From: Nitrososphaerota archaeon
GTDB taxonomy: Archaea; Thermoproteota; Nitrososphaeria; Nitrososphaerales; Nitrosopumilaceae
Direction of reading: 5' to 3'
DNA length: 64,000 nt
Assembly: GCA_016872055.1 (NCBI GenBank)
Contig: VHBH01000002.1
Location: forward strand, 1 to 64,000
Made by a program: the position numbers and the translations under genes. Positions within the stretch are counted from its first letter, which is position 1; each line of letters starts with the position of its first letter. Of the stretch, positions 17,727-18,555 are shown in pieces. The notes beneath the pieces are model-generated. The model saw only the letters and a program-made list of their open reading frames with translations. It was not told the DNA's origin and made no database searches.

Positions 17727-18443
17727 ATGAGCGAATTCTCCAGCCAAGAAAAGTCTGGACTCTACAAGGCAATCTTCACAAGGCGAGACGTTAGATCCCA
17801 TTTTAACTCAAAACCAATTCCGGATGAGACACTAGCAAGAATTCTTAATGCAGCTCATCATGCACCATCTGTTGGATTCTCCCAACCGTGGAATTTTGTT
17901 TTGATTAGGAATAACACCACGAAACAAAAGGTCAAAGAATCATTTGAAGCTGAAAAATTCCGCTCATCAAATGATGTCAATGATCAAAAAAAGGAAAAAT
18001 ATCTCTTGCTAAAGCTGGAAGGAATTTTGGAATCTGACGTGAATCTGTGCATTACTTATGATCCAGCCAGATTCGGACCATTTGTGATTGGCAGGTCAAG
18101 CATCCCAGAAACGGGTATCTATAGTGTTTGCTGCGCGGTGCAGAATTTATGGCTTGCAGCCCGCTCAGAAGGAATCGGAGTTGGCTGGGTCAGTATTCTG
18201 TCCAATGAAACCCTAAAGCAAGCACTAAATCTGCCAGAGCATATTGTGCCTGTTGCGTATCTGTGCCTTGGACATGTGGAGGAATTTGCAGAAAAGCCTG
18301 ACTTGGAGAATGCAAAATGGCTTCCGCGTCTTGAGCTCAAGGACGTTGTCTATTTTGAAAAGTGGGGCCAAACATCAAGTGAACTATGGAACAAAATCAA
18401 CGAATTGATCAGAACAAATCTTGATTACGCTTTTATGAAGTAA
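17727..18443 (+). CDS. bluB: 5,6-dimethylbenzimidazole synthase (BluB)
   Basis: Flavin-destroying nitroreductase-fold enzyme that turns FMNH2 into the lower ligand of cobalamin. 238 residues. Diagnostic stretches are RRDVRSHF near residue 20, NAAHHAPSVGFSQPWNFVLI, YDPARFGPFVIGR and PETGIYSVCCAVQNLWLAARSEGIGVGWVSI, matching BluB rather than general nitroreductases. Consistent with cobalamin (not pseudocobalamin) synthesis; cobJ lies 10 kb away in the window. Confidence 0.92.
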   Translation: MSEFSSQEKSGLYKAIFTRRDVRSHFNSKPIPDETLARILNAAHHAPSVGFSQPWNFVLIRNNTTKQKVKESFEAEKFRSSNDVNDQKKEKYLLLKLEGILESDVNLCITYDPARFGPFVIGRSSIPETGIYSVCCAVQNLWLAARSEGIGVGWVSILSNETLKQALNLPEHIVPVAYLCLGHVEEFAEKPDLENAKWLPRLELKDVVYFEKWGQTSSELWNKINELIRTNLDYAFMK

Positions 18444-18461: not shown

Positions 18462-18555
18462 GGGCTTGTAGCGCAGAGCCAATTTTGGCGCGCAACATGG
18501 ATAGCGCAGTAGCCTCCTAAGTTACAGGTCGAGGGATCGAAGCCCTCCAAGCCCG
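18462..18555 (+). tRNA. tRNA-Arg (CCT) with D-loop intron
   Basis: Acceptor GGGCTTG/CAAGCCC, anticodon stem GTAGC/GTTAC (one G-T), loop CTCCTAA giving anticodon CCT, T-stem GAGGG/CCCTC with ATCGAAG loop, discriminator G, CCA not encoded. The D-arm is 19 bases too long; removing 18477-18495 restores GCGC-AGCATGGATA-GCGC with conserved G18G19. The mature tRNA would be 75 nt. Standard tRNA searches could mis-score this gene. Confidence 0.92.
18477..18495 (+). other. 19-nt tRNA intron at non-canonical position 15/16
   Basis: The intron folds as a bulge-helix-bulge-like element: GCGC 18471-18474 pairs with GCGC 18490-18493; bulge AGA 18475-18477; inner helix GCCA 18478-18481 with TGGC 18486-18489 and ATTT loop; bulge AAC 18494-18496. 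Cutting after the second base of each 3-base bulge, as archaeal splicing endonuclease does, releases exactly 18477-18495. The outer helix is weak, so this is a relaxed (hBH-type) motif. Confidence 0.85.

Follow-up and report, generated by a model that had tools for sequence, protein, structure and literature searches.

Archaeal tRNA introns at noncanonical sites, with their BHB or relaxed hBH and HBh' motifs, were reportedly described by Marck and Grosjean in 2003. Introns of this kind, carrying either the BHB or the relaxed hBH and HBh' motifs, have been reviewed (PMC4090602, PMC6379350), and D-loop introns are explicitly counted among the known noncanonical sites (PMC6379350). The positions given include 20/21, 22/23 and 25/26 in a list that ends in 'etc.', with 15/16 not spelled out (PMC4090602). 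For Thaumarchaeota, the tRNAscan-SE 2.0 report gives 107 noncanonical introns and a dedicated BHB covariance model (PMC8450103). In A. pernix, residues K44-P45-R46 of the Crenarchaea-specific loop (CSL) have been described as important for cleavage and for relaxed recognition (PMC12397907). Our literature search for a specific 15/16 intron, or for D-loop introns in named Thaumarchaeota, returned general statements only.

Here, we analysed a tRNA-Arg(CCT) gene from an ammonia-oxidizing archaeon, 94 nt long when unspliced, at positions 18462-18555 of the window, which is the whole stretch of 64,000 nucleotides under study; its letters and coordinates were checked and found to be exact. The gene almost certainly encodes a functional, single-copy tRNA-Arg(CCU) whose precursor carries a 19-nt archaeal intron at the noncanonical site 15/16 and is spliced through a relaxed HBh' motif. 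Like the described noncanonical introns, this intron is short, lies at a site other than 37/38 and has bulge-helix geometry in which the expected cut falls after the second base of each 3-nt bulge. As in the hosts of such introns, the genes of the genome predict an endonuclease of the (alpha beta)2 type whose loop bears a lysine, and nothing basic differs. Lineage and class are also the same as for the thaumarchaeal introns in the tRNAscan-SE 2.0 report cited above, and the intron family may be among those 107 (PMC8450103).

The gene reads GGGCTTG-TA-GCGC-AG/AGCCAATTTTGGCGCGCAA/CATGGATA-GCGC-A-GTAGC-CTCCTAA-GTTAC-AGGTC-GAGGG-ATCGAAG-CCCTC-CAAGCCC-G, where the slashes enclose the proposed intron, and the predicted spliced sequence across 18476/18496 is GCGCAGCATGG (Table 1). 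The T-loop ATCGAAG (18536-18542), also seen in the orthologs, has A54 and G60 in place of T54 and T60; this genome has the same loop in its tRNA-Arg(TCT) and in a CAT tRNA, and the orthologs of family f8 have the usual TTCAAAT.

Table 1. Features of the tRNA-Arg(CCT) gene, in window coordinates.
Feature	Positions	Strand	Remarks
Probable box A (TATA), CTTTTAT	18430..18436	+	-32 to -26; overlaps the upstream ORF 17727-18443 at its 3' end
Exon 1	18462..18476	+	Acceptor 5' strand GGGCTTG, T8-A9, D-stem 5' strand GCGC, A14, G15
GCGC, positions 10-13	18471..18474	+	Mature tRNA: D-stem 5' strand; precursor: central-helix 5' strand
5' bulge AGA	18475..18477	+	5' splice site at 18476/18477
19-nt intron AGCCAATTTTGGCGCGCAA	18477..18495	+	Between positions 15 and 16; missing from intron-less orthologs; deletion gives a perfect cloverleaf
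Inner helix 5' strand GCCA	18478..18481	+	Covaries with 18486-18489
Inner helix 3' strand TGGC	18486..18489	+	Covaries with 18478-18481
Central-helix 3' strand GCGC, intronic	18490..18493	+	Predicted fold and intron alignment
3' bulge/loop AAC	18494..18496	+	3' splice site at 18495/18496; junction matches intron-less orthologs
Exon 2	18496..18555	+	From C16 to the discriminator base G73; anticodon CCT, 18516-18518; no encoded CCA
GCGC, positions 22-25	18504..18507	+	Mature tRNA: D-stem 3' strand

Common tools miss or mis-frame this gene, and its annotation is corrected here. On the window, ARAGORN reported only tRNA-Pro(ggg) and tRNA-Val(gac) and not tRNA-Arg(CCT), and on the isolated 94-mer it found no tRNA even in intron mode, which is restricted to the anticodon loop. 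Deletion of 18477-18495 yielded a 75-nt tRNA-Arg(cct) in ARAGORN with all stems paired, and the minimum-energy fold of this spliced sequence was that same cloverleaf, which bears out the original prediction that the gene forms a normal tRNA only without these bases. The Rfam model RF00005 gave a partial and marginal match (18485-18550; score 30.2 bits, cut-off 29 bits), mis-paired in that the intronic GCGC was taken as the 5' strand of the D-stem.

We examined the splice motif in the unspliced RNA. Its minimum-energy structure pairs 18471-18474 with 18490-18493, bulges out AGA (18475-18477) and folds the hairpin GCCA-ATTT-TGGC. Three elements are thus present, namely a central helix of 4 bp in which exon 1 pairs with the intron's 3' end, the 3-nt 5' bulge and the inner intron helix, and cuts two bases into each 3-nt bulge give exactly 18477-18495. 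The outer exon-exon helix is absent from this structure, positions 8-9 being unable to pair with the ATGG of exon 2, and because of this missing helix the predicted motif is classed as relaxed HBh' (bulge-helix-loop) and not as strict hBHBh'. The BHB-like motif of the original prediction was therefore recovered in its GCGC/GCGC helix, AGA bulge and GCCA/TGGC hairpin, but not as a full BHB; the expected cut sites, said to delimit 18477-18495 and restore G18G19, agree with the junction of intron-less orthologs. A further claim was that the intronic GCGC copies the D-stem and competes with it. Since site 15/16 puts the 5' bulge at positions 14-16, the central helix must take its 5' strand from positions 10-13 of the D-stem, and the intronic partner of this strand consequently resembles positions 22-25; the competition is real, but it is inherent to any 15/16 intron and no separate peculiarity.

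An alternative is that the 19 bases are retained, so that the mature product would be a variant tRNA with an enlarged 29-nt D-loop and no splicing. The D-stem can formally be closed over this longer loop. In computed energies, however, the motif was better than such a D-arm by 6.6 kcal/mol for the window gene and by a mean of 3.9 kcal/mol across 61 orthologous precursors, being the more stable fold in 57/61, with the D-arm slightly better in 4/61. Retention is also opposed by the orthologs that cleanly lack the insertion, described below, and by the way in which the introns vary.

To describe this variation, 59 distinct introns were aligned, with the window's family (f1) and a second family (f8) pooled. 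Inner-helix pairs 1-5 were formed in 59/59, 59/59, 57/58, 49/55 and 24/29 introns, respectively, and scored above all 2000 shuffles in this pooled set; pair 1 varies between G-C and C-G and pair 2 between T-A and C-G, with both still formed in every intron. Much of the signal in this set comes from differences between f1 and f8. In the window's family alone, pair 2 beat every shuffle (39/39 paired, as T-A or C-G), and in f8 alone pairs 2-5 did so. In all 59 introns the central helix has three standard pairs, of which one is G-U in five cases, and its fourth pair is G-C, G-U or G-A, the last in 16/59. The first intron base is A in 55/59; the loop varies, and intron length ranges from 14 to 35 nt. 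Judged from the alignment, a covarying helix with a drifting loop and length is the pattern of a structured intron that is removed, and we regard retention of the 19 bases as very improbable.

The conservation of the intron and its empty sites are, like its anatomy, matters of observation. A pattern search across 250 sampled genomes from the family found the intron in 193 (20 of 22 genera) and an intron-less gene in 22 (4 genera), and no genome had both an intron-bearing and an intron-less copy. The remaining 35 fit neither pattern; many of these are incomplete and some have diverged exons, for example G020. Among high-quality genomes, 119/131 have the intron and 5/131 lack it. Exon identity is high throughout the family in genes that carry the insertion. 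The ortholog comparison proposed in the original prediction came out in favor of an intron, in that intron-less orthologs have a clean empty site at the predicted junction, GCGCAG/CATGGATAGCGC; they read GCGCAG-YATGGATA-GCGY (one CTTGG), with no base gained or lost. These natural empty sites are the decisive evidence for the intron, and they lend indirect support to its removal in vivo. One of them, L072 (same contig as G341), was located via a conserved downstream gene and is syntenic, lying directly upstream of that gene, and the 5' half represented by exon 1 is identical in the intron-less ortholog L072/L102. With the intron found in 193/250 family genomes, covarying helices and empty-site orthologs, a tRNA-Arg(CCT) with a 19-nt D-loop intron, as originally proposed, is far beyond chance.

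The register of the intron required separate consideration, as the repeat GCGCA (18471-18475 and 18490-18494) allows any removal from 18471-18489 up to 18476-18494, which would leave A15 and the D-loop AACATGGATA with the D-stem intact and equally good. Against this, every intron-less ortholog whose empty site was matched reads GCGCAG, and none reads GCGCAA; the empty-site pattern used on the 250 genomes itself requires G15, but G15 was also present in ortholog sequences found without that constraint. Moreover, a G at position 15 preserves the Levitt pair G15-C48, which is present in 82/82 orthologs, and 18477-18495 is the intron expected if both 3-nt bulges are cut symmetrically. Because the intron-less orthologs all have G15 and G15-C48 is found in 82/82, we settled the junction as 18476/18496 and give a shifted register very little credence.

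Least probable of all is that this tRNA copy is decaying or has been inactivated, its insertion being a chance event, and that the tRNA comes from another gene: ordinary tRNA finders do miss or mis-call the gene, but it is the only tRNA-Arg(CCT) among the 42 tRNA matches to RF00005 in the genome, its exons are kept at high identity with the insertion in place, and a box A-like element, CTTAAAT, is conserved upstream of most family orthologs, intron-bearing and intron-less alike.

Other tRNA genes of the same genome (G000) were inspected as well. A second noncanonical intron is likely in tRNA-Val(CAC) (L022, G000:C3:69368-69463, - strand), where a standard 74-nt tRNA results once the 22-nt AGGATTGTTGCAATCCCGCAAA 3' of the anticodon stem is removed; its motif, TGCG[TAA]GGATTG...CAATCC-CGCA[AAG], has the same HBh' design as that of tRNA-Arg(CCT). 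L028 (G000:C12:4821-4923) was called tRNA-Arg(TCT) with a 28-nt intron by ARAGORN, and other 28-nt removals give tRNA-Met(CAT), so that it may be an elongator tRNA-Met with a shifted intron. tRNA-Trp, initiator tRNA-Met, Gln(CTG), Leu(TAA) and Arg(TCG) were not among the 42 RF00005 matches; these genes may be intron-disrupted or unassembled.

Genes for a splicing machinery are present. Splicing endonuclease (PF01974) genes were found in all but two of 41 searched genomes, mostly two per genome. The window's genome has two, encoding an alpha protein of 177 aa and a beta protein of 197 aa. The alpha protein matches the A. pernix EndA chain 3p1z_B (2e-39) and has the aligned tyrosine, histidine and lysine, which we take to be the active-site residues of the EndA family, and the beta protein lacks the active-site histidine. 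Because one catalytic and one histidine-lacking PF01974 protein are encoded, the enzyme is likely of the (alpha beta)2 type. The alpha protein also has K-P-K aligned with K44-P45-R46 of the A. pernix CSL, and a gene for the RtcB ligase is present.

In the predicted precursor fold, the 5' D-stem GCGC pairs with the intronic GCGC and the intron folds its own hairpin, giving the relaxed HBh' motif. By analogy with the known archaeal pathway, the heteromeric endonuclease would then cut between 18476 and 18477 and between 18495 and 18496, and RtcB would join the exons. The freed GCGC would pair with 18504-18507 to form a normal D-arm (A14-G15-C16...G18G19). G15 is the last base of exon 1, and the genome has a TGT-family gene, a potential maker of archaeosine at G15, whose presence is silent on the order of this step relative to splicing. 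It is conceivable, though we consider it unlikely, that the 15/16 intron is old and position-locked in ammonia-oxidizing archaea and is kept since the motif holds the D-arm open until splicing, thereby timing events in the D-arm, the formation of archaeosine at G15 among them.

Within genera g12, g16 and g19 of the surveyed family, intron states are mixed, which suggests several precise losses. In other families of the order (f2, f14 and f15), the members sampled are intron-less. Family f8 has introns at the same 15/16 site, with the same central-helix rule and a first base that is mostly A; they differ from those of the window's family in an unrelated inner helix and in length (14-35 nt), being mostly longer. 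In family f3, the tRNA-Arg genes L085 (G054) and L089 (G038) have other, longer D-loop insertions, one of which is flanked by the direct repeat CTCAGTTTGG.

Taken together, the 15/16 intron of tRNA-Arg(CCT) is a well-supported, well-conserved and ordinary case of a known class, which it fits in every tested respect. It leaves the picture of archaeal tRNA splicing unchanged and is of moderate value for annotation and for intron evolution. Together with f8, the family provides a clean natural series, with the intron present, absent or different at the same site, in which one can study how noncanonical tRNA introns are gained and lost and, in ammonia-oxidizing archaea, which substrates the endonuclease accepts.
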